Source of the DNA: Bryobacterales bacterium
GTDB lineage: Bacteria > Acidobacteriota > Terriglobia > Bryobacterales > Bryobacteraceae
Assembly: GCA_003164035.1 (NCBI GenBank)
Contig: PLRS01000035.1
Coordinates: 62,001-126,000 of the forward strand
Direction: 5' to 3'
DNA: 64,000 nucleotides
Shown here: piece by piece, positions 5,312 through 19,231 of the stretch
Layout of the letters: each line of letters starts with the position of its first letter
Numbering within the stretch: position 1 is the stretch's first letter
The notes under the pieces: generated by a model
Told to the model about the DNA's origin: nothing
Seen by the model: the letters and a program-made list of their open reading frames with translations, nothing else
Databases searched by the model: none
Made by a program: the position numbers and the translations under genes

Positions 5312-6184
5312 TTATTGCGGTAGGACGCGCGATTCGGTCCATGTCCGGCTTTGCAGCAGGGAGTCGCCGGCCAGCAAGCTGGGATCCTGGAACGTTTGCA
5401 TGGAATCCACCGATTCAAGCACCCGTTCGAGCAGGCTGTCGGTTTCGGAAACCGTGGTCTTCAAGGCGTCGAGCGAACGGCTCTGCGATCCGACCCGCTG
5501 GTCGAGCGAGGCCAGGACTTTGCCCAGAGCGTCTTCCTTCTGTGCGACCGAGGTCTTCAAGGTATCGAATTGCTTGGTCTGGTCGGCGAAGCGCTCTTCG
5601 AGCGAGCTCACCATCTCGAGCAGCGTCTGCTTTACTTCGCCCGCCTGCGCGACCGACGCGGTCAGGACATCGAACCGGCTGGCGAAGCGCTCTTCGAGCG
5701 AGTTCACCATCTGCAGCAGCGTTTGCTTTTCTTCGGCCGCGGCGGCGGAGGCGGCCGAAGCTTCCGGAGCCGCTTGCAACGAGTCAAGCGATTCCAGGAC
5801 GCGTTCGAGCAGGCCGTCGGTCTGGGTCACGGTGCTCTTGAGGACTTCGATCGAGCCGGCCTGGCTGTTCATCCGGTCGTCGAGGGAAGTCATGGTTTTC
5901 GAAAGCAGTTGTTCCATGGCGGACACAATGTCCGCGGTCGAGGGCACTTCCTTGAACTTGGCGTCATGCTCGGCCAGGCGCGCTTCCACTTGATCGAAAC
6001 GTCCCGCCGTATCGGAGTACTGTCCGGCCAGGCGCGTTTCCAGGTCGGCCAGAGACTTCTTTAATTCCGCAGCCAGTTTCGGGTCCACATCTCCGCGAAG
6101 CCGGCGCGCTCCAGTGACCGCACCCGCGGCGATTCCGGCAACGAAAATCGCGATGCGTGGAAGATAGTCGAGAGTTCGTCCCAT
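5312..6184 (-). CDS. Membrane-anchored coiled-coil protein of unknown function
   Basis: 290 residues. One hydrophobic segment near the N-terminus (LPRIAIFVAGIAAGAV) is followed by an almost wholly helical, heptad-rich region. That region contains related repeats (SLEERFASRFDVLTASVAQ, SLEERFADQTKQFDTLKTS, DSLLERVLESVDS, DGLLERVLESLDS), consistent with internal duplication of a rod. It resembles generic coiled-coil/apolipoprotein-like proteins, but no family is recognised. It is transcribed divergently from the histidine kinase across a 147-base gap. A TTGCAA and a TATAAG-like pair lie just upstream but very close to the start. A structural or scaffold role is inference only. Confidence 0.75.
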   Translation of the reverse strand: MGRTLDYLPRIAIFVAGIAAGAVTGARRLRGDVDPKLAAELKKSLADLETRLAGQYSDTAGRFDQVEARLAEHDAKFKEVPSTADIVSAMEQLLSKTMTSLDDRMNSQAGSIEVLKSTVTQTDGLLERVLESLDSLQAAPEASAASAAAAEEKQTLLQMVNSLEERFASRFDVLTASVAQAGEVKQTLLEMVSSLEERFADQTKQFDTLKTSVAQKEDALGKVLASLDQRVGSQSRSLDALKTTVSETDSLLERVLESVDSMQTFQDPSLLAGDSLLQSRTWTESRVLPQ

Positions 6185-6244
6185 GCGTGATTCTCTTATA
6201 ATACTTTTCCGTAATCTCTTGCAAGTACTACAGTTTGTGAGTAG

Positions 6245-6257
6245 CGTACCAGGTACG
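6245..6257. promoter_or_regulatory. Perfect 6-bp-arm palindrome in a divergent intergenic region
   Basis: CGTACC-A-GGTACG lies between the minus-strand coiled-coil gene and the plus-strand kinase gene. A short perfect dyad in a divergent promoter gap is a typical operator arrangement. The regulator is unknown. Confidence 0.3.
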
Positions 6258-6331
6258 TAACGGAATTGCCCGAGGTTAGTGATCCTGCCATCCTATTTAA
6301 GCAAGATCCTTTTATCGCAGGAGAATTCCGG

Positions 6332-7357
6332 TTGAACACTAGAGCGGAGTCCGAAGCCGCCACGGAAGAAACGCCGATCTCAGCAGTCTTCACGGAATGC
6401 GACCGCGTCGGGTGCATTCTATGGCAAAGCGCGCGCGCCAATCGCGTGCTGGGAGCACGGGCCGGCTTGGCCGATGCGCTCACGGCGGGCGCGGCCCGGT
6501 GGAGCGTGACCTGCGTGCTCGATACGCCTCGGCGCATCTGGCTGGGGTTGCAGCCGCTCCCCAAGCCGGAAAGCGCCGCCCACCGGAGCGCCTTCGCCTT
6601 GCACCATCTGGAGGGTCGGCTTCTGGGACACTACTTTCATTTGCAGAGGGCGGAGCGAAATATTGCCGACCGGGTGAAACAGGGGCCGAGACGCGCCGGT
6701 GCGGGACAATTGATTCAGCACATGGAGCGGGAACGGCAACGCCTGGGGCGCGAGTTGCACACCGGAGTCGGGCAGTTGCTGGCCGCCATTAGTCTGCAGG
6801 TGGATACGGTCGCGACCGCGATCCCCGACCCGCCGCCAGCCGCCAGCCAGGCTCTGGACCGGATCTCGCTGCTGGCCGGCGACGCGCTCGAACAGGTGCG
6901 GGCTGTTTCGCGCCGCCTGCATCCGCCCATGTGGCAGCGCCTTACCCTGGAAGAAGCGCTGCGGCAAATGTGGGCCTTGAGCGGCGTGCCGGAGAAGTTG
7001 GCCGCCACGGCGACCATCGCTTCGCTGTCCCGCGGCCCGGAGCCGGAAATCAAGGCCCTGCTTTACCGCGCCGCGCAGGAGGCAATCTCCAACCTGGTGC
7101 GCCATTCGCGAGCCACCGCCGCGCGGCTCAGCCTGACCGAGTCCGAAGGCTGGCTACACCTCACCGTATGGGACAACGGCGGCGGGTTCGACGTGGCGTC
7201 GATCTGGGATGCGCCGGCCGATGCTCGCGCCGGCCTGGGGCTGCGCTCGCTGCGCGAAGAAGCCGCCGCCGTCGGAGCCGCCATGCACATCGAAAGCGGT
7301 CCATCGGGTACCAGCGTAATGGTGGCAGCTCCCTTCGAATTTAAGGAACCCGAATGA
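6332..7357 (+). CDS. Cytosolic sensor histidine kinase, NarL/LuxR-type partner (HisKA_3)
   Basis: 341 residues if started at the TTG at 6332, which is preceded by CAGGAG at a good distance; an alternative in-frame TTG at 6266 lacks that site. No transmembrane helix or signal peptide is seen. The N-terminal ~120 residues look like a small sensory region of unknown ligand. The dimerisation/phosphoacceptor helix contains ERERQRLGRELHTGVGQLL, with the phosphorylated His near residue 143. The HATPase_c domain follows, with N-box QEAISNLVRHS, G1 WDNGGGF and G2 AGLGLRSLREEA. This arrangement (H-box LH[TD]) is typical of kinases that phosphorylate LuxR-family regulators, and such a regulator starts 27 bases downstream. 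The signal and target genes are not evident; the cytochrome operon is the nearest large plus-strand unit. Confidence 0.88.
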   Translation: MNTRAESEAATEETPISAVFTECDRVGCILWQSARANRVLGARAGLADALTAGAARWSVTCVLDTPRRIWLGLQPLPKPESAAHRSAFALHHLEGRLLGHYFHLQRAERNIADRVKQGPRRAGAGQLIQHMERERQRLGRELHTGVGQLLAAISLQVDTVATAIPDPPPAASQALDRISLLAGDALEQVRAVSRRLHPPMWQRLTLEEALRQMWALSGVPEKLAATATIASLSRGPEPEIKALLYRAAQEAISNLVRHSRATAARLSLTESEGWLHLTVWDNGGGFDVASIWDAPADARAGLGLRSLREEAAAVGAAMHIESGPSGTSVMVAAPFEFKEPE

Positions 7358-7384
7358 GCCTCGAAATGGGAACGAAAGGCAATA

Positions 7385-8050
7385 ATGCAGCAGATTTATA
7401 ACAATATAACCGTGGTATTGGCCGACGACCACGAGATCGTGCGCGAAGGTTTCGCCTTGATCTGCGAGGAAAGCGGATTGCGAATCCTGGGCCAGTGCGC
7501 CGACGGGGTGGCGGCCGTGGACATGGTGATGACTCTCAAGCCCACGCTGGCGATTCTCGACCTGGAAATGCCGAAACTCAGCGGAATTGACGTCATCCGC
7601 CAACTGAAAGCCCGCGGATCGGGCTCGAAACTCCTGATTCTCTCCATCAGCCGCGAAGACCAGCGGGTAATGGAAGCCCTGCGCGCCGGAGCCGATGCCT
7701 ATATCCTCAAGGATGGTCCAAAGCGCCATCTGATTGATGCCATTGGTTTTGTGCGAGACGGAGGAGTTTACATTTCACCCCTGTTGCGGGGCGTGGGCAT
7801 TTTTACGCGCGCTGCGAACGCCGCTCAGGAAGATCCCCTGGCGGTGCTCAGCCCGCGCGAACTGGAGGTTTTCACCCACCTGGTCAATGGCTTGCGGGCA
7901 AAGGATATCGCGGACCTTCTGCAAATCAGTCCGAAAACCGTGGATACCTACCGAGCCAGCCTGATGCGTAAACTACAGGTCCGCGACTTAGTGAGCCTGG
8001 TGAAATTCGCTATCGAGCGTAACCTTACGTCTACTTCTCCAACGCGATGA
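7385..8050 (+). CDS. NarL/FixJ-type response regulator with LuxR HTH
   Basis: 221 residues. The receiver domain covers about 8-125: acidic pair D14-D15, phospho-acceptor D59 in LAILDLEMPKLSG, S87 in the switch position, and K109 in YILKDG. The C-terminal LuxR helix-turn-helix covers about 150-215 (LSPRELEVFTHLVNG, KDIADLLQISPKTVDTYRA). AAAGG precedes the ATG. It forms a two-gene operon with the kinase. Its 3' end overlaps by 20 bases a small converging ORF on the other strand. Regulation of the cytochrome operon about 800 bases downstream is possible but unproven. Confidence 0.93.
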   Translation: MQQIYNNITVVLADDHEIVREGFALICEESGLRILGQCADGVAAVDMVMTLKPTLAILDLEMPKLSGIDVIRQLKARGSGSKLLILSISREDQRVMEALRAGADAYILKDGPKRHLIDAIGFVRDGGVYISPLLRGVGIFTRAANAAQEDPLAVLSPRELEVFTHLVNGLRAKDIADLLQISPKTVDTYRASLMRKLQVRDLVSLVKFAIERNLTSTSPTR

Positions 8051-8237
8051 GGGGTGTACCGCTGGCAACTCGGATTTCTCGCATCCGCTGGTAGTCTTCC
8101 AGAGAGCGAATAAGACCGTCAACTGCGGCCCGGCGTTGATAGAGCCGATCCAGTGCCCGCCGACGAATCACATTCATCGACAGGAGGCGTCTTCTGTCCG
8201 CCGAAAATGCTGAAGGAATCACGATTGGATTCGTCAT
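8031..8237 (-). CDS. Small hypothetical protein
   Basis: 68 residues, basic and helical (SADRRRLLSMNVIRRRALDR, SLEDYQRMREIRVASGTPL). It converges on the response-regulator gene and overlaps its 3' end by 20 bases. There is no strong ribosome-binding site. The composition looks protein-like rather than like a shadow frame, but no family is recognised. It may be a spurious ORF. Confidence 0.4.
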   Translation of the reverse strand: MTNPIVIPSAFSADRRRLLSMNVIRRRALDRLYQRRAAVDGLIRSLEDYQRMREIRVASGTPLIALEK

Positions 8238-8272
8238 TTACCGATCTATCCCAGTACCGATATGAGGGTATT

Positions 8273-8310
8273 TCAGGAAATCAACGGTAAGTATAACGGC
8301 AATTTCCTGA
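8273..8310. promoter_or_regulatory. 9-bp perfect inverted repeat upstream of the cytochrome operon
   Basis: TCAGGAAAT (8273-8281) and ATTTCCTGA (8302-8310) are separated by 20 bases that themselves hold two AACGG words. It could be an operator or a 5'-UTR hairpin of either flanking transcript. No regulator is assigned. Confidence 0.35.
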
Positions 8311-8437
8311 TATATGCAAGTGTTTTTGCAAGAAAAATCTGACTCTTTTACAGTTTTTTCTGGTACTGCCATTGGTAAGTGCTAGAACCCCTGAAACTAA
8401 GTACTCGATTTCGGAATTGCAGCCACGTAGTAAGAGC

Positions 8438-8484
8438 AACCGCTCCCTGGCGGTCGCGGCTCGATTTCGCGCGTTTCCGAGCCG
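8438..8484. repeat. Interspersed palindromic repeat, 'gagccgcgaccg' family
   Basis: AACCGCTCCCTGGCGGTCGC is followed by a hairpin with arms GCGGCTCG and CGAGCCGC. It is the same family as the copies near 2281, 24519, 29441 and 61693. It is the only member found here in a large promoter-bearing gap. Confidence 0.6.
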
Positions 8485-8843
8485 CGCGCGTCGGAAGACT
8501 TGAAATATTCGATTTTCGGGGTTACAGCCAGAAACCCTTTCCTAAACGCAAGATTCCACTATTGGGTGGTGAGCTCAGCGCCATTTCACCCAGCACTTGA
8601 CCCACCGCTTCCTTGTTTTTGACCCAGGCTGAGCGGACGTACCAGATCGGTCAAGAAAACGATGAAATTTGCGACAGGCTGATAATAAAAGGCTTTGGGA
8701 CCTGCAATCGATTATATAAGGTTATGGTCCTACACATGCAGACGGTGGTTGGCTCGGTAGCATGCATCGTCCTGGCTGGGTTGTCTCCTAGCGCTCGCGG
8801 TGCATAAGAATCTCGGTTCTTACTCTAAGCGGAGAACAAGCGC

Positions 8844-11057
8844 ATGCGGACTCCTTCAGTTTCGTCGGCAATACGGTACGCCCTGGTGGCGGCAGCGGTC
8901 GTCGGGTCGGCCGTTGTTTTGGTCGCGGCCAGGAAAAGCACTTTCACGCCACACGAAAAGGCATTTTACGCGGATCCCTCGGTCGTCGAATATGTGAACC
9001 CCGGCTTGACCATTACCGTGGTGTCGGCGAAAATCGCCTCCAACGGTACGATCAGCGTCGATTATAAGTTGACGGATCCCACCGGCGCGGCACTGGATTC
9101 GGCGGGCGTGGTCACGCCGGGTCCGGTTTCGTTGAGTTTCCTGGCGGCTTATATTCCCGCGGGCCAGTCGCAGTATAGCTCGTACATCACGAGGGTATCC
9201 ACGGCGGCCACCGGCGGCGCTACCGCAACGCAGGCCACGACCGATTCCGGCGGAACCTATCAAACCGTCTCGACCGGCGAGTATATCTATACCTTCAAGA
9301 CCGTGGCGCCGACCGGATTCAACGCCAACGCGACCACCCGCATCGGCATATATGGCTCGCGCAACCTGACCCAATGGGACCTGGGTACGAGCTACGCCGA
9401 TACCTATTACGACTTTATTCCGTCCGGGACCGGCACGCCGACTCCTCGCGACATCGTGCGCAACGCCGATTGCAACTCCTGCCATGGGAGCGCCGTCACC
9501 ACCACCAGCACCAACGGCTTGGCGGCGCACGGCGGCTCGCGCCGCAGCGTGGGCGTCTGCATCATCTGCCACCAGCCGCAGACCTCCGATCCGAATACCG
9601 GCAACAGCCTGGATATGAAAGTGTTCATCCACCAGATTCATATGGGCAGTTCGCTCCCCAGCGTCCAGGCCGGCACACCCTACCAGATCATCGGCTATCA
9701 AAATTCGGTGAACGACTGGTCGACGGTGGAGTACCCGGCCAATATCGAGCGCTGCCAGACGTGTCACAATCCCAAGAACGGGGCCGCGCAGACCGGCGCC
9801 TGGCTCAATAGCCCCGGGGCGGCGGCGTGCGGCTCCTGCCATGACAATGTGAATTTCGCCACCGGTACCAACCATGCCGGCGGACCGCAGCCGGACGATA
9901 GCGAATGCGCCAACTGCCATATTCCGCAGGGCGAGTTGCCATTCGATTCCTCCATCATGGGCGCCCACACCATCGCGGACCAGGCGCCGGGCATTCCGGG
10001 GTTGAACTTTACCCTGGTGAGCGTAACCGGCGGCAGCGCCGGGAAGAACCCGACGGTCACGTTCACGGTTAAGGACAATAGCGGCAACCCGATTCCGATG
10101 AGCAGCTTCACCACGGGTTCGAATTCGCTTTCGCTGACCATGGCCGGCCCGAGCAGCGATTACGGCTACACCAGCTTCGGGTCGGACACCACCAGCACGC
10201 CGGGCTACGTCACCGAATCGGCCACATCGGCTACCTGCAGCGGCTCCGGGACCTGCGTATACACGTTCACCCACGCGGTTCCGGCCAAGGCAACCGGCAC
10301 CTATGCGATCGGCATTGAAGGGCGGCTCTCCATCACGCTGCTGCCGGGCACGACCTCGGCGACAACCACTAATTATGGTGGTGTTAACCAGGTCATTTAT
10401 TTCTCGGTGGACGGTTCGGCGGTGACGCCGCGCCGCACGGTGGTGGCGATGGCAAACTGCAACGCCTGCCATTCCTACCTGGAAGTGCATGGCGACCTTC
10501 GCAACAACGTCACCTACTGCCCCATCTGCCATAACCCAAGCAACACCGATGCGAGCACGCGATCCAGCGCCACCGTAAAGGCGCAACAGTCGCTGCCGCC
10601 GCAGGGCATCAATTTCGCGATGATGATTCATAAGATCCACACCGGCGCGAACCTGGAGGCGAATTTCAACCAGGACTACATCATCGTCGGTCACGGCGGG
10701 AGCGAGAACGACTTCGGAGCCGCCTACGCTTCGGTTCCGTCTTCGATTCCGAACACGGGCGTGCGCTATCCGGCGATGGGGCCGTCCGGCTCGGTCGCGG
10801 ACACGGCGGAATGTTACATGTGCCACGCTAACGGTTCGGAGGCCGTGCTGCCCATCGGCAAGAACCCGGTGACCGACCCGCAAGGTCTGCTGAATCCCTC
10901 GCCGACCACCACTTCGGCTTGTACGGCATGCCATCTGAATACCGGGGCATTCGCGCACGCCGTTACCCAGACCGATCCCAAGTTGGGTGAAAGCTGCGAT
11001 GTGTGCCACGGAACGGGCGCGCCCTTTAGCGCGACCCAGGTGCACGCCGGCCAGTAA
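8844..11057 (+). CDS. OmcA/MtrC-type decaheme c-type cytochrome (paralog 1)
   Basis: 737 residues. An N-terminal hydrophobic signal (ALVAAAVVGSAVVLVAA) has no lipobox Cys, unlike Shewanella MtrC/OmcA. Ten CxxCH heme motifs lie between about residues 210 and 718: CNSCH, CIICH, CQTCH, CGSCH, CANCH, CNACH, CPICH, CYMCH, CTACH, CDVCH. They form two pentaheme groups separated by a beta-rich stretch (about 375-520), matching the alternating beta-barrel/pentaheme plan of this family. The family passes electrons from the outer-membrane conduit to extracellular acceptors such as metal oxides. GGAGAA precedes the ATG. It is the first gene of a five-gene cytochrome operon and has a near-copy immediately downstream. 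Surface location is inferred from family and context. Confidence 0.92.
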   Translation: MRTPSVSSAIRYALVAAAVVGSAVVLVAARKSTFTPHEKAFYADPSVVEYVNPGLTITVVSAKIASNGTISVDYKLTDPTGAALDSAGVVTPGPVSLSFLAAYIPAGQSQYSSYITRVSTAATGGATATQATTDSGGTYQTVSTGEYIYTFKTVAPTGFNANATTRIGIYGSRNLTQWDLGTSYADTYYDFIPSGTGTPTPRDIVRNADCNSCHGSAVTTTSTNGLAAHGGSRRSVGVCIICHQPQTSDPNTGNSLDMKVFIHQIHMGSSLPSVQAGTPYQIIGYQNSVNDWSTVEYPANIERCQTCHNPKNGAAQTGAWLNSPGAAACGSCHDNVNFATGTNHAGGPQPDDSECANCHIPQGELPFDSSIMGAHTIADQAPGIPGLNFTLVSVTGGSAGKNPTVTFTVKDNSGNPIPMSSFTTGSNSLSLTMAGPSSDYGYTSFGSDTTSTPGYVTESATSATCSGSGTCVYTFTHAVPAKATGTYAIGIEGRLSITLLPGTTSATTTNYGGVNQVIYFSVDGSAVTPRRTVVAMANCNACHSYLEVHGDLRNNVTYCPICHNPSNTDASTRSSATVKAQQSLPPQGINFAMMIHKIHTGANLEANFNQDYIIVGHGGSENDFGAAYASVPSSIPNTGVRYPAMGPSGSVADTAECYMCHANGSEAVLPIGKNPVTDPQGLLNPSPTTTSACTACHLNTGAFAHAVTQTDPKLGESCDVCHGTGAPFSATQVHAGQ

Positions 11058-11063
11058 CCTGAT

Positions 11064-11103
11064 CGCCCGGAGCGGCCGTGCCCCCTCGTGGCCGCTCCGG
11101 GCG
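11064..11103 (+). other. Strong stem-loop between the two decaheme cytochrome genes
   Basis: CGCCCGGAGCGGCC (11064-11077) pairs perfectly with GGCCGCTCCGGGCG (11090-11103) around a 12-base loop. There is no T-tract, so it is not a classical terminator. Plausible roles are transcript processing or 3'-end protection that sets the ratio of the two cytochromes. Confidence 0.6.
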
Positions 11104-11134
11104 AGCAACGGGTTTTCATACGGAGATCTGAGTC

Positions 11135-13351
11135 ATGCGGAATTCTTCAAAAGCACGGACCATCGCCGGATTACTCCTGGTGGTCCTCCTTGTCGCGGGC
11201 GCCGCTCTGGTAGCGGCCGCCGACCGCAAACCGGCTTTGACGGTTCACGAGAAAGCCTTTTACGCGAGCGCAAACCTGGTGGACTACGTCCAGCCCGGGC
11301 TGGTCGTCAGCGTGGTTTCGGCCAAGATTGCGAGCGACGGCACCATCAGCGTCGATTATAAGGTCGCCGACCCCAACGGAGCGTCGCTCGATTCCTCCGG
11401 TGTGGCGACCCCGGGGACGATTTCGCTGAGCTTCCTGGCGGCTTACATTCCCACCGGCCAGGCGCAGTTCGCATCCTATATTACCCATAGCGTCGCCGCG
11501 GCCACCGGCTCCGCCACGGCCACCCAGGCAACGTCGGATTCCGGCGGCACCACCACCACCGTCGCCCAGGGCGAGTACGTTTACACGTTCAACACCAAGG
11601 CGCCCAGCGGCTTCAACGCCAACGCCACCACCAGAATCGGCATTTACGGCTCGCGCAACCTGACCCAGTGGGACCTCGGCACCGATTATGCCGACACCAC
11701 CTACGACTTCATTCCGTCCGGAACCGGCACGCCGACTCCGCGCGACGTCGTGCGCAACGCCGATTGCAACGCCTGCCACGGCAGCGCCATCACCGCGACC
11801 AGCACCAACGGCCTGGCCGCGCACGGCGGCACGCGCCGCAGCGTGGGCATCTGCATTATTTGCCACCAACCGCAAACCGTCGATCCGAACACCGGCAACA
11901 CCCTGGATATGAGAGTTTTCATCCACAAGATTCACATGGGCAGCTCGCTGCCCAGCGTCCAGACCGGAAAGCCCTACCAGATCGTCGGCCATTTGAATTC
12001 GGTGAACGATTGGTCCACGGTGGAGTATCCCGCCAATATCGAGCGTTGCGAAACGTGCCATAACCCGAAGAATGGGGCGGCGCAGACCAACGCCTGGATG
12101 ACAGCCCCCGGCGCCGCCGCCTGCGGGTCCTGCCATGACAACGTCAATTTCGCCACCGGCACCAACCATCCGGGCGGGGCGCAGGCCACCGACGCGCAAT
12201 GCGCCACCTGCCACATCCCGCAAGGCACGCAGTCGTTCGATGCGTCGATCATCGGCGCTCACACCATAGCCGACCAGGCACCGGAGCTGGGCGGCCTGGT
12301 CTTCGGCCTGGTCAGCGTGACCAACGGCACGCCCGGCAAGACGCCCACGGTTACCTTCACGGTTCACGACAAGACCGGCGCCGGCATTCCCATGAGCAAT
12401 TTCACCACTGGCAGCAACTCTCTCTCGCTGACCATGGTGGGCCCCACCAGCGATTACGGCTACACCAGCTTCGGCTCGGACACGGCCAGCACGCCGGGCT
12501 ACGTGACCGAATCGGCCACGGGCGCGTCCTGCACCCCCAGCGGCACCTGCCAATATACCTTCACCCACGCCATTCCGGCGAAGGCTACCGGCACGTATAC
12601 CATCGGCATCGAGGGCCGCCTTTCCGCCACGCTGTTCCCCAACACGCCGCAATCCACCACCACCAATTACGGTGGCGTCAACCAGGTGATCAACTTCTCG
12701 GTGGACGGTTCGCCGGTCGCGCCGCGCCGCACCGTGGTTGCCATGGCGAACTGCAACGCCTGCCACTCCTATCTGGAAGTGCACGGCGACCTTCGCAACA
12801 ACGTCACCTATTGCCCCATCTGCCATAACCCGAGCAACACCGACGCCAGCACGCGCTCCAGCGCCACGGTAACGGCGCAACAGTCGCTCCCGCCACAGGG
12901 GATCAACTTCGCCATGATGATTCATAAGATCCACACCGGCGCGAACCTGGAGGCGGTGTACGGCAAGGACTACATCATCGTGGGCCACGGCGGCAGCGAG
13001 AACGACTTTGGCGCCGCCTACGCTTCGGTTCCCTCTTCGATTCCCAACACCGGCGTCCGCTATCCCGCCATGGGCCCCAGCGGCTCGGTTCAGGATACGG
13101 CCGAGTGCTATATGTGCCACGCCGGCGGCTCGGAAGCGGTGTTGCCCATCGGCAAGAACGCCGTGACCGACCCGCAGGGCCCGATCAATCCGGACCCGGC
13201 CACCACTTCGGCATGCACCGCTTGCCACCTGGATGCCGGTTCGGTGGCCCACGCTCAGGCCAACACCAGTACGCAGTTCGGTGAAGCCTGCAGCGTCTGT
13301 CATGCAGCCGGCGCCACTTATGACGCCATCCAGGTTCATGCCGGACAATAA
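11135..13351 (+). CDS. OmcA/MtrC-type decaheme c-type cytochrome (paralog 2)
   Basis: 738 residues with ten CxxCH motifs (about residues 211-719) at the same spacing as the upstream gene. The two proteins align end to end by eye without large gaps and share long identical blocks, for example from RRTVVAMANCNACHSYL through HKIHTGANLEA. The signal peptide (AGLLLVVLLVAGAALVAAA) again lacks a lipobox. GGAG lies upstream of the ATG. This is a tandem duplication. Differences cluster in the N-terminal leader, the central beta region and the last ~60 residues, which could mean different acceptors or interaction partners. Role: terminal, probably surface-exposed electron-transfer cytochrome (family knowledge). 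Confidence 0.92.
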   Translation: MRNSSKARTIAGLLLVVLLVAGAALVAAADRKPALTVHEKAFYASANLVDYVQPGLVVSVVSAKIASDGTISVDYKVADPNGASLDSSGVATPGTISLSFLAAYIPTGQAQFASYITHSVAAATGSATATQATSDSGGTTTTVAQGEYVYTFNTKAPSGFNANATTRIGIYGSRNLTQWDLGTDYADTTYDFIPSGTGTPTPRDVVRNADCNACHGSAITATSTNGLAAHGGTRRSVGICIICHQPQTVDPNTGNTLDMRVFIHKIHMGSSLPSVQTGKPYQIVGHLNSVNDWSTVEYPANIERCETCHNPKNGAAQTNAWMTAPGAAACGSCHDNVNFATGTNHPGGAQATDAQCATCHIPQGTQSFDASIIGAHTIADQAPELGGLVFGLVSVTNGTPGKTPTVTFTVHDKTGAGIPMSNFTTGSNSLSLTMVGPTSDYGYTSFGSDTASTPGYVTESATGASCTPSGTCQYTFTHAIPAKATGTYTIGIEGRLSATLFPNTPQSTTTNYGGVNQVINFSVDGSPVAPRRTVVAMANCNACHSYLEVHGDLRNNVTYCPICHNPSNTDASTRSSATVTAQQSLPPQGINFAMMIHKIHTGANLEAVYGKDYIIVGHGGSENDFGAAYASVPSSIPNTGVRYPAMGPSGSVQDTAECYMCHAGGSEAVLPIGKNAVTDPQGPINPDPATTSACTACHLDAGSVAHAQANTSTQFGEACSVCHAAGATYDAIQVHAGQ

Positions 13352-13369
13352 ATCGTACAGGTAACCGTC

Positions 13370-14383
13370 ATGCATCGACCGCAAGTGCGCACCGCGAGCC
13401 GCTCCGCCCTGTCCGCCCACCGCCCGATCCGCGCGCTGGCGCTGGCAGTGGCGGCGGCCGGGTGGCTGACAATTGTTTCGGGGAGCGCGCGGGCCCAGGC
13501 GGATGACAAGCCTGCCGCCAAGCCCGCCGCTCCCTCGGCACCCGCCAAGCTCGAATACATGGGCTCGGAGACCTGCGCCATGTGTCACGAAGACCTGGCC
13601 AAGGCCTTTCAGAAGAATCCCCACCGGCTGGTGGATACCGACAAGAAATACAAGCACCCGGCGCAGGCTTGCGAGGCGTGTCACGGTCCCTCCAGCAAAC
13701 ACGAAGATTCCATGAACGCGGCCGACATCCGCAATCCGGCCAAACTACCAGCGGCGGAGGCGGACCGCATCTGCCTGTCGTGCCATTTGAACGCGCCCAC
13801 CCATGTTGGCCGCATCAGCGGCAGCCATGCCAAGAATGAAGTGAGTTGCGTCTCCTGCCACTCCATCCATAAGGGTCCGGAGGCCATGGTGGCGCGTAAA
13901 CCGGCCGACATCAACCATCTCTGCGCCACTTGCCACCGGGACGTGTGGGCCAGTTTCCAGCGGCCGTACAAGCACCGGCTGCCGGAATCCGCCATGAGCT
14001 GCGTGGACTGCCACAACCCGCACGGCAGCCTCCTGCCCCACAGCCTGCAGCTTGTGGAAGCCAACGAACCGGCCTGCGTGAAGTGCCACGGGGATAAGCG
14101 CGGCCCGTTCCCCTTCGCGCACGCGCCCATGCAACTGGAAGGGTGTACCGCCTGCCACGAACCTCACGGGTCGGCCAATCCGCGCATGCTGACGCGGGCG
14201 CGGGTGTACTTCGTCTGCCTGGAGTGCCACGCCAATCTGTCGCAGCCTACCCCGGTTGCCAACGGCACCATGGGCGCCGTGCCGCCCGCGTTTCACGACC
14301 TGCGCAACCCGCGTTTCCAGAACTGCACGGTCTGTCATCAGAAGATACATGGCTCCTATGTGAGCCAGGATTTCCTGAAATGA
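13370..14383 (+). CDS. DmsE/MtrA-family periplasmic decaheme c-type cytochrome
   Basis: 337 residues. Signal peptide RALALAVAAAGWLTIVSGSA with cleavage near ARAQ. Ten CxxCH motifs: CAMCH, CEACH, CLSCH, CVSCH, CATCH, CVDCH, CVKCH, CTACH, CLECH, CTVCH. Many are followed by the short spacing and NPHGS/EPHGS-type turns typical of MtrA/DmsE. MtrA-type proteins form a heme wire inserted in an MtrB-type barrel, carrying electrons across the outer membrane. The gene ends in a TGA that overlaps the ATG of the porin gene, implying translational coupling and stoichiometric assembly. It starts 18 bases after the second OmcA/MtrC gene. Confidence 0.94.
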   Translation: MHRPQVRTASRSALSAHRPIRALALAVAAAGWLTIVSGSARAQADDKPAAKPAAPSAPAKLEYMGSETCAMCHEDLAKAFQKNPHRLVDTDKKYKHPAQACEACHGPSSKHEDSMNAADIRNPAKLPAAEADRICLSCHLNAPTHVGRISGSHAKNEVSCVSCHSIHKGPEAMVARKPADINHLCATCHRDVWASFQRPYKHRLPESAMSCVDCHNPHGSLLPHSLQLVEANEPACVKCHGDKRGPFPFAHAPMQLEGCTACHEPHGSANPRMLTRARVYFVCLECHANLSQPTPVANGTMGAVPPAFHDLRNPRFQNCTVCHQKIHGSYVSQDFLK

Positions 14384-16398
14384 AACATTCTTGGTTATTT
14401 CTGCTGCTGGCCTCGGGATACGCCCCGGTCTTCGGGCAAACGGTGCCAGCCGCGCCCGCCGCCGAGGCCCAGACAGGTCCCGCAGCCGCGCCGGCCGCAC
14501 CCGCACCCGCCCAGGCCGCACCCGCCGCTTCTCCGGCTCCCGCCACCGAACAATGGATCACCGGCAGCTTCGAGGTGGGCTACCGCTGGACGCCGGATCT
14601 TTCGGGCAACATGAACGAGTATCGCAGCGTCGTCAATCTGGGCGCCGGTCCCCGCCTGCTCGATATCGACCTGACGATTATCGATCCCAATAAGCGGTTT
14701 TTCGACCGGGTGGACGCGCGCGCCAGCGGCTGGGGCGATCCGAATAACTCCATCCACGTGGACGCCACGAAGCTGGGAATCTACGACTTCCGTTTCGACT
14801 ATCGCAACATGGCTTATTTCAATGCCGTGCCCAGTTTCGCCAACCCCGGCGCTCCGGCCGGCTTCAACGAGCAGGCCTTCGACGCGCACCGCCGCATGAT
14901 GAGCGCCGACCTGGACCTCCTGCCCGGCAAGCACTTCGTTCCCTACCTTTCCTTCGACCACAATTCCGGTTACGGCGACGGCATCGACACCTACGTCGAT
15001 TCCTCCAGTAACGAGTACGCCGTGCCTACCCGGCTGCGCGACGCCACCAATAATTACCGCGGCGGCGTGCGCGTGGAGTATTCGCGCTTTCACGTTTCTC
15101 TCGAGCAGGGCGGCACCACCTACAAAGACGACGATTTCGCCTCCGAAACAGGGGTGGAATATGGCGATAATTCGCAGCCGCTCTTCGGCCAGGTGCTGGA
15201 CCTATCGAGCCTGAAGCAAACCTACGGTATTCGCGGCAGCAGCCTCTACAGCCGGGCGCTCGCGACTGCCAGCGTAACGCCGTGGTTGAACGTCTACGCG
15301 CAGTTTCTCTATAGCGAGCCCAAGACCACGGTCAACTACGTGGATATCGCCGACGGCAACTTCGCGCTGCTGAGCTCGCTGCTGTTCTACAGCGGCCAGT
15401 TGAACCTGGGAACCGGCACCTCCAACCAACCTCACACCACCGCCAGCGGCGGCGTCGAAATGCGGCCGCTCAAACGGGTGCGGGTGATGGGTTCCTGGAT
15501 GACCGACCGGTATCACGACGCCGACTCGCCGCTCGAAAGCCAGCAGATCTACCTCACACCCACCACGCTCGGGCCGGGCCTGGTCACCAGCTTCAATTAC
15601 ACTCAATATGTGAACTACAACCAGGGCGAAGTCAACGTCATCTACGATGCCGGCAAGCGGCTCACCCTTCGTACCGGCTACCGCCGCGTGTGGGGCGAGG
15701 CCACGGAATTTGCCGGGCCGCTCAGCCAGACGGGCCTGTTGGTGGCGGGGCAGCTCCAGCGCAACATTGCCTTGGCCGGCGCCACTTATCGGGCCTCTCA
15801 AAAGCTGTCGGTGAACCTGGATTACGAAGGCGCTTCGAGCGACAACATTTACTTCCGCACCAGCCTGAACGACTATCAGAAGGGTAGGGCGCGGGCGCGG
15901 TATCAACTGGCCAGTTCGCTGACGTTGCAGGCCCGCTACCAGATACTCGAAAATCAGAATCCGGATCCCAGCATTCGCTACGACTTTGAAAGCCGCAACA
16001 GCTCGCTGGGCATTTTCTGGACTCCCAAAGCCGCCAAGCGCTTCAGCGTATCGGGCGAATACGACCGGTCCACGCTGCGCTCCAACATCACCTATCTCAC
16101 CTTGCCGGCGCTGGGGTCGGCGGTGTCGGATTATCGCGATAACGCGCATACGGTCACCGGTACGGTGGACGTGGCTCTGCCGGGCAACGCCAAACTGAGC
16201 GTGGGCGGAGCGATGTTTCTGTCATCGGGCAGCCAGCCCGCCAATTACTATCAGCCGTTGGGGCGGTTTTCGGTGCCCATCGGCAAGCACGTGTCCTGGA
16301 ACACTCAATGGCAGTGGTATGGCTTCAACGATTCCTTTTACGGGTATGAAGGTTTCCGCACGCACATCGTAACTACCGGGATACGGGTGACTCGTTAG
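14380..16398 (+). CDS. MtrB/PioB-family outer-membrane beta-barrel (decaheme-associated porin)
   Basis: 672 residues from the ATG at 14380, which overlaps the stop of the decaheme gene (ATGA). The signal peptide (HSWLFLLLASGYAPVFGQ) is followed by an unusual ~50-residue Ala/Pro-rich linker. The rest is amphipathic beta strands with many aromatic girdles (GSFEVGYRWTPDLSGN, DIDLTIIDPNKRFFDRVDA, RYQLASSLTLQARYQI) and a final strand ending TGIRVTR. MtrB-type barrels sheath the decaheme cytochrome in the outer membrane. The N-terminal CxxC seen in Shewanella MtrB is not present. The frame is open upstream, but the coupled ATG with its signal peptide is clearly the start. Confidence 0.9.
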   Translation: MKHSWLFLLLASGYAPVFGQTVPAAPAAEAQTGPAAAPAAPAPAQAAPAASPAPATEQWITGSFEVGYRWTPDLSGNMNEYRSVVNLGAGPRLLDIDLTIIDPNKRFFDRVDARASGWGDPNNSIHVDATKLGIYDFRFDYRNMAYFNAVPSFANPGAPAGFNEQAFDAHRRMMSADLDLLPGKHFVPYLSFDHNSGYGDGIDTYVDSSSNEYAVPTRLRDATNNYRGGVRVEYSRFHVSLEQGGTTYKDDDFASETGVEYGDNSQPLFGQVLDLSSLKQTYGIRGSSLYSRALATASVTPWLNVYAQFLYSEPKTTVNYVDIADGNFALLSSLLFYSGQLNLGTGTSNQPHTTASGGVEMRPLKRVRVMGSWMTDRYHDADSPLESQQIYLTPTTLGPGLVTSFNYTQYVNYNQGEVNVIYDAGKRLTLRTGYRRVWGEATEFAGPLSQTGLLVAGQLQRNIALAGATYRASQKLSVNLDYEGASSDNIYFRTSLNDYQKGRARARYQLASSLTLQARYQILENQNPDPSIRYDFESRNSSLGIFWTPKAAKRFSVSGEYDRSTLRSNITYLTLPALGSAVSDYRDNAHTVTGTVDVALPGNAKLSVGGAMFLSSGSQPANYYQPLGRFSVPIGKHVSWNTQWQWYGFNDSFYGYEGFRTHIVTTGIRVTR

Positions 16399-16408
16399 GA
16401 GGCTGGCC

Positions 16409-17515
16409 ATGGCGAATCTTTACAGAGTGGGTTTGGCCCTGCTGATGGTGTCGGGCGTGTTTGCGGCCGAACCCATTCAGGGCAACGCCGACAGGGGCGC
16501 GAAGCTTTTCCAAAACGAGCAGTGCGTCCGGTGCCATAGCGTCAACGGCAAGGGTGGTACCGCGGCACCCGATCTGGCGCGCCGCATGGACCGCGATTAC
16601 ACGCCCGCCGTGATGGCCAGCCTGATGTGGAACCATGCGCCGGAAATGTGGACCGGCATGAAGGCCCAGGGCATCGTCCGGCCGTCGCTCAGCGCCGAAT
16701 CGGCCGCCGATCTTTTCGCTTATTTCGTAGCGGGGCGCTATTTTGAAAAACCCGGGGACGCCGGGCGCGGCAAGCTGGCTTTCCACGACAAGCACTGCGA
16801 CTCCTGCCACGGCATCGATGCCGCCATGGCCGGCGGTGCTCCGCCGGTTTCGCGGTGGGAATCCCTGGCCGACCCGATCGTGCTGGCGCAACAGATGTGG
16901 AACCACGGCGGAAAGATGCGGGCGGCGTATCTGGCAGCGTCCCTCAAATGGACCGAGCTCGCGCCCCAGGAGCTCACCGACATTTTGGTATACCTGCAAA
17001 ATCTACCGCAGACTCGCCATCAGGCGGAAAGCTTCGAGTTCGATATTTCCGACAGCGGCGCCGGCCTGTTCGCCTCCAAGGGTTGCACCGAATGCCACCA
17101 GGGCAAAATGGCGCTGGAGAACCGGCTCCGCAATCAGACCCTCACCGAGATCGCGGTGGATATGTGGAACCACCAGCCGTCCATGAAACAGCCGTCGCCG
17201 GTTTTCACTCGCCCGGAGATGCGCGAAATCATCGGCTACCTTTGGGCCCGGCAGTATTTTCGCGGCGAAGGCAATGCCGGGAGGGGCAAGAAGGTATTCG
17301 CGGATAAACATTGCGCCGCCTGCCATGAGCAGCCCTCCAGCGGCGCTCCGGCCCTGGGCGGGGCTAAAGGCCAGTATTCCGATATCAGCATGATGGGCGC
17401 GCTCTGGCAGCACGGCCCGCGCATGCTCGAGCTGATGGGCGAGCGCAAACTCCCCTGGCCGCGCTTCGATGCCCAGCAGATGTCGGACCTGATCGCCTAT
17501 TTGAACTCGCGCTGA
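16409..17515 (+). CDS. Tetraheme c-type cytochrome built from four cytochrome c-like repeats
   Basis: 368 residues. Signal peptide ANLYRVGLALLMVSGVFAAE. Four CxxCH motifs (CVRCH, CDSCH, CTECH, CAACH) lie at roughly residues 41, 131, 228 and 308. Each is followed ~60-75 residues later by a matching motif: LMWNHAPEMW, QMWNHGGKMR, DMWNHQPSMK, LWQHGPRML. The Met or His there may be the distal heme ligand. The protein is thus two class-I cytochrome c pairs. AGGAGG precedes the ATG, 11 bases after the porin. It is the last gene of the operon and probably links periplasmic or inner-membrane electron donors to the conduit (inference). Confidence 0.88.
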   Translation: MANLYRVGLALLMVSGVFAAEPIQGNADRGAKLFQNEQCVRCHSVNGKGGTAAPDLARRMDRDYTPAVMASLMWNHAPEMWTGMKAQGIVRPSLSAESAADLFAYFVAGRYFEKPGDAGRGKLAFHDKHCDSCHGIDAAMAGGAPPVSRWESLADPIVLAQQMWNHGGKMRAAYLAASLKWTELAPQELTDILVYLQNLPQTRHQAESFEFDISDSGAGLFASKGCTECHQGKMALENRLRNQTLTEIAVDMWNHQPSMKQPSPVFTRPEMREIIGYLWARQYFRGEGNAGRGKKVFADKHCAACHEQPSSGAPALGGAKGQYSDISMMGALWQHGPRMLELMGERKLPWPRFDAQQMSDLIAYLNSR

Positions 17516-17605: not shown

Positions 17606-19231
17606 CTAATTCACGGCGATAATCACGCCCGGCTGGCTGGTCGCGCTTCCGATGGTGACCAAGACGGGGACGGACGAACCGGGGGTTACTCCTGTGGGGA
17701 CGATGGCATTGACTTGCACCAGGCCGGCGATGGCGCCGGGCGCTCCGCCGCTGTACACGACTTGAGCGGGAACCCCGCCGATGGTCACGGTGGTACTGGA
17801 CGACAACCAGGGCAATGGGTCGGATGGGGTAATGGAGGCGTCCGGGCTGGGGGGATTCGTCACGCCACCGCCGGTAAGGTAGATCTGCACGACGGAACCG
17901 GGGGCGGCGGGACGGGCCACGCTGTTGATGCTGTAGTCCTGGTTCAGGATCGCGCCGGGGCCGGAGGGGGAATAGTCCAGGGTGTAGATACCGGGATTGG
18001 CGGCTTGCACGTTCAGGACGGTGGCGGCGGAGATTCCTCCCTGGTAGGTCACGATCATTTTGGTGGTGCCGGCCACTTCGAACGGCACCACGGCGTTCAC
18101 TTGCGTGTTCGAGGCGTAGGTGAGCGCGGCGGCTTTTCCATCGAACAACACCTGTGCGCCTCCCAGGTTGGTGGCGACGGCGGTATTGTTCGACACCAGT
18201 TGCAAGCCGACGCCAGTGGACGGTCCAAGATTATTTCCGAAAATGGAAACGATTTCACCCGGCGACACCACGCCCGAGGTCCCCAGCGCCGACGCGAAAC
18301 TGGCCGAGTGGTCGACGGCGGCAATCAGCGGGGTAGGCGGGGCGGCAGCCTGCTGGGTAACCGAAAAAGCCAGCGTCCCGATATAAAGAGCGCCGGTTCG
18401 CGCCGCGCCCGTGTTCGCGCTCACGGTGTAACCGAGAGGCCCCGGGCCATTGCCATAACTGGTCGATGAGATGCCGATCCAATTCACGTTGGTGTAGACG
18501 GTACCCCAGGAACAGCCGGCGCCGGTGGTGACGGTCAGATAGCCGGGGCCTCCGGCGGCGGAAAAGGACGCGCCGGCCGGCGTGAACGTCAGGTTGCCCG
18601 GCGACCCATCCTGATTGACGGTGAACTGCGGCACCGGGTAAGGATACGCCGAACCGAGCGCCACCGGTGTGCTGGAGCCGGCTTCCACGGTGAGAGTTCC
18701 GGAACGGCCGGCAACGCAGGGGTTCGCCGCGACCGAATAGCCCACGGCTCCATTTGAAACGCCGCTCGCGCCGGAAGTCACGGTAATCCAACTGGCATTG
18801 CTCCACGAGTTCCAGACGCAGTCGCTCTGGACCGCGAAGGTGGAAGAGCCGGCGCCCACACCGATTTCGTAAGCCGTCGAAGTCAGCGTCAGCAAGCACG
18901 GAGATGCCTGCTGGGTGACGGCGACCGTCGCCACCGTGCCCGCCGCCGAATCGGCGATCGTAATCTTCGCCGTACGCGGGGAGGGGAGCGTGTTAACGGT
19001 CACGGCATAGGCGAAGGTGTAGCTTCCGCCGGATTGCCCGTTTGCCTGGCCGTAGAAGGTAAGCCAGGAAGAATCCGACGTGTAGGTCCAGATGCAGTAG
19101 CTGCCGGAGGCCACGGAAATCTGTCCAATGCCGGCGGTGTAGGAAATGGTAGCGGTCTGGGGCGGATTGACGGTATAGGCGCATTGCGCGCACAACGGCA
19201 TCGCCGCCAGGAAAGCGAGGAACAGCTTCAT
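17606..19231 (-). CDS. Secreted BACON-repeat protein with TIGR03437 C-terminal domain
   Basis: 541 residues. Signal peptide MKLFLAFLAAMPLCAQ. About residues 20-290 hold three BACON-like beta-sandwich repeats, each ending in a VTQQA/VNQDG-type strand and containing a W(L/I) core (SDSSWLTFYG, SNASWITVTSG, TNVNWIGISS). The C-terminal ~230 residues are a TIGR03437 domain (SPGEIVSIFGNNLGPS, NTQVNAVVPFEVAG, GLVQVNAIVPTGVTPGSSV), a module expanded in Solibacter. BACON domains are thought to bind carbohydrate or mucin. No enzyme domain is present. It is a single gene converging with the cytochrome operon. Confidence 0.85.
   Translation of the reverse strand: MKLFLAFLAAMPLCAQCAYTVNPPQTATISYTAGIGQISVASGSYCIWTYTSDSSWLTFYGQANGQSGGSYTFAYAVTVNTLPSPRTAKITIADSAAGTVATVAVTQQASPCLLTLTSTAYEIGVGAGSSTFAVQSDCVWNSWSNASWITVTSGASGVSNGAVGYSVAANPCVAGRSGTLTVEAGSSTPVALGSAYPYPVPQFTVNQDGSPGNLTFTPAGASFSAAGGPGYLTVTTGAGCSWGTVYTNVNWIGISSTSYGNGPGPLGYTVSANTGAARTGALYIGTLAFSVTQQAAAPPTPLIAAVDHSASFASALGTSGVVSPGEIVSIFGNNLGPSTGVGLQLVSNNTAVATNLGGAQVLFDGKAAALTYASNTQVNAVVPFEVAGTTKMIVTYQGGISAATVLNVQAANPGIYTLDYSPSGPGAILNQDYSINSVARPAAPGSVVQIYLTGGGVTNPPSPDASITPSDPLPWLSSSTTVTIGGVPAQVVYSGGAPGAIAGLVQVNAIVPTGVTPGSSVPVLVTIGSATSQPGVIIAVN

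Follow-up and report, generated by a model that had tools for sequence, protein, structure and literature searches.

A probable MtrCAB electron conduit of the Bryobacterales Group 5 type with tandem mtrC genes

Introduction

Does a run of multihaem cytochrome genes in a Bryobacterales bacterium encode a route for electrons across the outer membrane, and is such a set out of place in this lineage? Both questions are raised by the window, the 64 kb stretch of DNA analysed here, for which an earlier note had proposed an outer-membrane electron conduit and had judged it less expected in a Solibacter-like soil bacterium. A related layout is on record. Baker et al. (2022) describe a Bryobacterales "Group 5" that consists of mtrCAB and a downstream tetraheme cytochrome, in which mtrC is not duplicated (5 hits) and the vicinity lacks a quinol dehydrogenase gene (PMC8805035).

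Results

Five consecutive genes occupy 8844-17515 on the + strand (Table 1). Their products are two decahemes of the OmcA/MtrC family, one of the DmsE/MtrA family, a beta-barrel and a cytochrome with four haems. The intergenic gaps, in gene order, are 77, 18, -4 and 10 bases, which is spacing as in an operon, and together the five genes carry 34 CxxCH sites (10 + 10 + 10 + 4). The earlier description of one operon with 34 heme sites thus holds. Among the other ORFs of the window, none longer than 200 aa contains a CxxCH site, and a chance origin of the haem cluster is therefore excluded. A kinase and response regulator precede the operon, and a pair of this kind likewise lies 5' of mtrC in five other loci (L046, L047, L048, L086 and L089); this arrangement suggests a regulatory link between the pair and the mtr operon. 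Directly downstream of the operon, on the opposite strand (17606-19231, -), lies a gene whose product combines BACON domains with the Solibacter C-terminal paralog domain TIGR03437.

Table 1. Genes of the mtr cluster and the possible regulators upstream of it
Feature	Position	Strand	Description
HisKA_3-type histidine kinase	6266..7357	+	Possible regulator (Pfam)
NarL/LuxR-type response regulator	7385..8050	+	Possible regulator (Pfam)
mtrC1	8844..11057	+	OmcA/MtrC-family decaheme, 737 aa, 5+5 haems, CX5C between pentaheme domains, without lipobox
mtrC2	11135..13351	+	738 aa, 10 haems, tandem paralogue of mtrC1
mtrA	13370..14383	+	DmsE/MtrA-family decaheme, 337 aa, 10 CxxCH, signal peptide by eye
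mtrB-like outer-membrane barrel	14380..16398	+	672 aa, start overlapping mtrA stop (ATGA)
Multi-domain class-I cytochrome c	16409..17515	+	368 aa, 4 haems, predicted periplasmic

The two decahemes that the earlier note had assigned to OmcA/MtrC pass the TIGR03507 profile at 528.6 bits (MtrC1) and 500.9 bits (MtrC2), against a cut-off of 209.3. PF22113 is found twice in MtrC1, which also matches the solved structure of MtrF (PDB 3pmq) at E 7e-20. The two genes are 79% identical and cluster in a tree with one mtrC from a close relative. A separate tandem pair is present in another genome (G030, L097), and locus L045 has an additional mtrC, a more distant second copy. We found no lipobox pattern in MtrC1 or MtrC2. 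Because Shewanella MtrC carries an N-terminal LXXC lipid anchor (PMC9973256) and both window proteins are without a lipobox, an anchor of the Shewanella type is missing here. Among 47 MtrC sequences scanned, some with uncertain start codons, the pattern matches in 5, at positions that are not conserved. Between the two pentaheme domains lies a CX5C cysteine pair. In Shewanella a CX8C pair at this place controls flavin reduction (PMC9973256), and the CX5C pair may, by analogy, be its equivalent.

MtrA was likewise assigned correctly. It scores 256.5 bits against TIGR03508 (cut-off 192.2) and aligns with MtrA of the solved complex (PDB 6r2q_A) at E 3.3e-40, with ten of ten CxxCH sites matched. 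Its score against NF041028, the Geobacter GSU2203/OmcK family, is 218.7 bits, under the curated cut-off of 325. The genome encodes a second MtrA (269 bits to TIGR03508), followed by a homologous barrel, on contig C140 (8141-11252, +); we found no mtrC near this pair, whose neighbours are ordinary genes.

The barrel required more care. Called mechanically, its ORF begins at GTG 14143. We reject this start, since the 79 residues that it adds at the N-terminus are mtrA read out of frame. Translation probably begins at ATG 14380, which forms an ATGA overlap with the mtrA stop. Of the 37 distinct loci that we fetched and that have a close homologue of the barrel, 32 show such an overlap under a counting rule that gives preference to an ATG close to the mtrA stop; a few of these loci may be one species from two collections. 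The earlier note had called this an MtrB/PioB-type barrel, and of the three profiles it named, TIGR03507 and TIGR03508 were passed above cut-off, whereas TIGR03509 gave no match to the barrel at E 0.1 (curated cut-off 240.05 bits). Nor did a PDB sequence search, with the barrel alone or with its 29-member alignment, return anything relevant. Weak matches to TIGR03509 (best 3.1e-5) come from 6 of the 29 aligned barrels, and 8 have a match to the GSU2204 family (NF041027), where the window barrel itself has none; GSU2204 is numbered adjacent to the decaheme GSU2203. Profile-profile comparison with TIGR03509-positive barrels gave E 5.4e-6 and a probability of 86%.

It is the fold that places the barrel near MtrB. 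An AlphaFold2 model of low confidence, built on an 8-sequence alignment (pLDDT 56.6, pTM 0.49), has 26 strands as counted from its listed structural elements, the strand number of MtrB (PMC7198977). Foldseek against the PDB ranked MtrB (6r2q_B) best at E 8.7e-15, with the runner-up at 7.9e-8. Structure comparison gave MtrB a Z of 20.2 over 525 residues and the runner-up 16.2, and unrelated TonB receptors reach about 15-16. We therefore assign the modelled barrel to the MtrB fold but not to the sequence family TIGR03509; the MtrB-like part of the earlier assignment stands and the expected profile match does not.

The last gene of the operon encodes four CxxCH sites, as the tetraheme cytochrome of the earlier note should. 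The protein consists of tandem class-I (PF00034-type) domains (PF00034, E 6.6e-26). A CymA/STC-type tetraheme identity was considered and rejected, as Pfam shows class-I domains. The gene adjoins the cluster in 19 of 32 relatives' loci fetched, and it agrees with the published Group 5 tetraheme in position and haem number (PMC8805035). This class-I cytochrome is most likely a periplasmic electron shuttle.

How common is the set in the family? The nearest named relatives are Bryobacterales MAGs, and a close barrel homologue (E below 1e-60) occurs in 49 of 61 same-family genomes, a sample that includes the genome studied here and holds mostly one genome per genus. We fetched 32 clusters around barrel homologues in relatives' genomes (L086-L117, two from outside the family). 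The barrel adjoins mtrA in all 32, and 30 have an mtrC gene or a part of one at a contig edge; the exceptions are L096, with only a 109-aa mtrC fragment, and L110, with no mtrC. The order mtrC-mtrA-barrel is conserved in relatives. The family appears to have another type of conduit as well: at L118 (G020:C28, 5509-10233, +) a TIGR03509-positive barrel accompanies a decaheme and a four-haem cytochrome.

The mtr cluster is unlinked to the quinol dehydrogenase genes of its own genome. A search of that genome for a short CymA (PF03264) found longer multidomain proteins only. Of two adjacent genes on contig C6 (L080, 12582-15739, +), one specifies a nine-haem protein that includes a cytochrome b561 domain and the other a five-haem NapC/NrfH-type membrane protein. 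From their domain make-up and by comparison with Geobacter, we take the first to be CbcL-like and the second ImcH-like. Another candidate quinol dehydrogenase is a b561-NapC fusion on contig C123 (L079, 5214-7514, -). In four relatives' loci (L096, L097, L114 and L115) homologues of the five-haem ImcH-like protein lie beside the mtr cluster.

Two genomes carry extended forms of this protein. In G102 (L139, contig C1 of 6.18 Mb, 5647-12886, -) the order is mtrC, an ImcH-plus-c7 protein (877 aa, 17 haems), mtrA and barrel. In G044 (L113, contig C12, 10811-14305, -) a single 1164-aa ORF with 27 CxxCH sites adjoins mtrC and the barrel, and joins a NapC/NrfH-type quinol dehydrogenase, c7 triheme repeats and, in frame, a C-terminal MtrA. 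A signal-peptide-like segment lies inside the fusion, and in the junction DNA from the last c7 haem to this segment we saw no in-frame ATG, GTG or TTG. Across 399 genomes of the class, only G102 and G044 give matches at E 1e-130 that extend far beyond the ImcH part. A literature search, covering titles and the beginnings of abstracts, yielded no paper that we recognised as describing an ImcH-MtrA fusion.

Discussion

The profile scores of the decahemes and the predicted fold of the barrel support the earlier reading of this locus as a conduit for electron transfer across the outer membrane. It is highly probable that the window genes encode an acidobacterial MtrCAB conduit of the Group 5 type, with MtrA in the barrel, outward transfer via MtrC and a four-haem periplasmic shuttle. 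Electrons would pass from a quinol dehydrogenase to the four-haem carrier, on to MtrA inside the barrel, then to MtrC1/MtrC2 and an external acceptor. With MtrA housed in a 26-strand MtrB-like barrel, they would cross the outer membrane along its ten haems. On the outer face, either MtrC1 or MtrC2 would dock and hand them to extracellular acceptors, for which Fe(III)/Mn(IV) oxides, humics and flavins are candidates.

MtrAB-type cores serve both directions of flow (PMC8805035), and class-I cytochrome domains could hand electrons to an oxidase. The conduit might thus run inward, like PioAB/MtoAB, with Fe(II) or another donor outside the cell as its electron source. We consider this unlikely. MtrC paralogues are present here and absent from Fe(II)-oxidising Pio/Mto clusters (PMC4245776), and we found no RuBisCO in the genome, which is 99% complete, a result that argues against Fe(II)-driven Calvin-cycle autotrophy. 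Neither point is decisive, but because RuBisCO was not found and MtrC is present, we favour outward over inward transfer.

DmsEF systems serve the extracellular respiration of a soluble substrate. Since MtrA falls in the DmsE-named family TIGR03508, the conduit could have such a role, with minerals or humics not involved. This is improbable: we saw no molybdopterin reductase gene in the cluster or the neighbouring genes scanned, and two OmcA/MtrC-family surface decahemes are present instead. That the barrel is an unrelated outer-membrane protein, with the decahemes working without an MtrB-type sheath, would suit its lack of a TIGR03509 or PDB sequence match and the low confidence of its model, but is very improbable given MtrB as the clear best fold match, the weak TIGR03509 and the GSU2204-family matches of aligned barrels, the constant pairing with mtrA in relatives and the homologous barrel beside the second MtrA gene.

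With Shewanella MtrCAB (6r2q) the window set shares a 10+10 haem MtrC/MtrA and, by model, a 26-strand barrel. It differs in a barrel unrecognised by TIGR03509, in an MtrC without lipobox and with CX5C, not CX8C, and in having a class-I multi-domain cytochrome; a further difference is that the genome search for a short CymA found none. Set against the Geobacter GSU2203 (OmcK)/GSU2204 families (NF041028, NF041027), MtrA is below the cut-off and the window barrel has no match, although 8 of 29 barrels do.

The closest likeness is to Group 5. Clustered mtrC, mtrA and mtrB, a tetraheme gene immediately 3' of mtrB (here after a 10-base gap), a Bryobacterales host and a cluster without a quinol dehydrogenase gene are all shared; the two tandem mtrC genes set the window apart, as duplication was reported absent in Group 5. 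Since Baker et al. (2022) describe the layout for Bryobacterales (PMC8805035) and the set is common in the family, the surprise expressed in the earlier note was unwarranted. The mtr set is neither unexpected nor new, but a fresh example of the published type. Beyond the published account are the tandem mtrC, an MtrC without conserved lipobox, the second MtrA-barrel pair and the candidate ImcH/CbcL-type partners.

These partners bear on how the conduit is supplied. We infer that it is fed by the ImcH/CbcL-type quinol dehydrogenases on contig C6. An ImcH-c7 gene within a relative's mtr cluster hints at electron feeding, a gap in the published Group 5 account. We propose tentatively, as a real possibility that we would not yet call probable, that acidobacterial Mtr is a hybrid chain in which a Shewanella-type MtrCAB exit is fed by Geobacter-type ImcH/CbcL-like dehydrogenases, with a feeder that is c7-extended in G102 and fused to MtrA in G044. 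If this is true, the 27-haem polypeptide of G044 could span the inner to the outer membrane. More broadly, since the mtr set is common in the family, these soil acidobacteria may share a general capacity for extracellular electron transfer, which would then be no curiosity.
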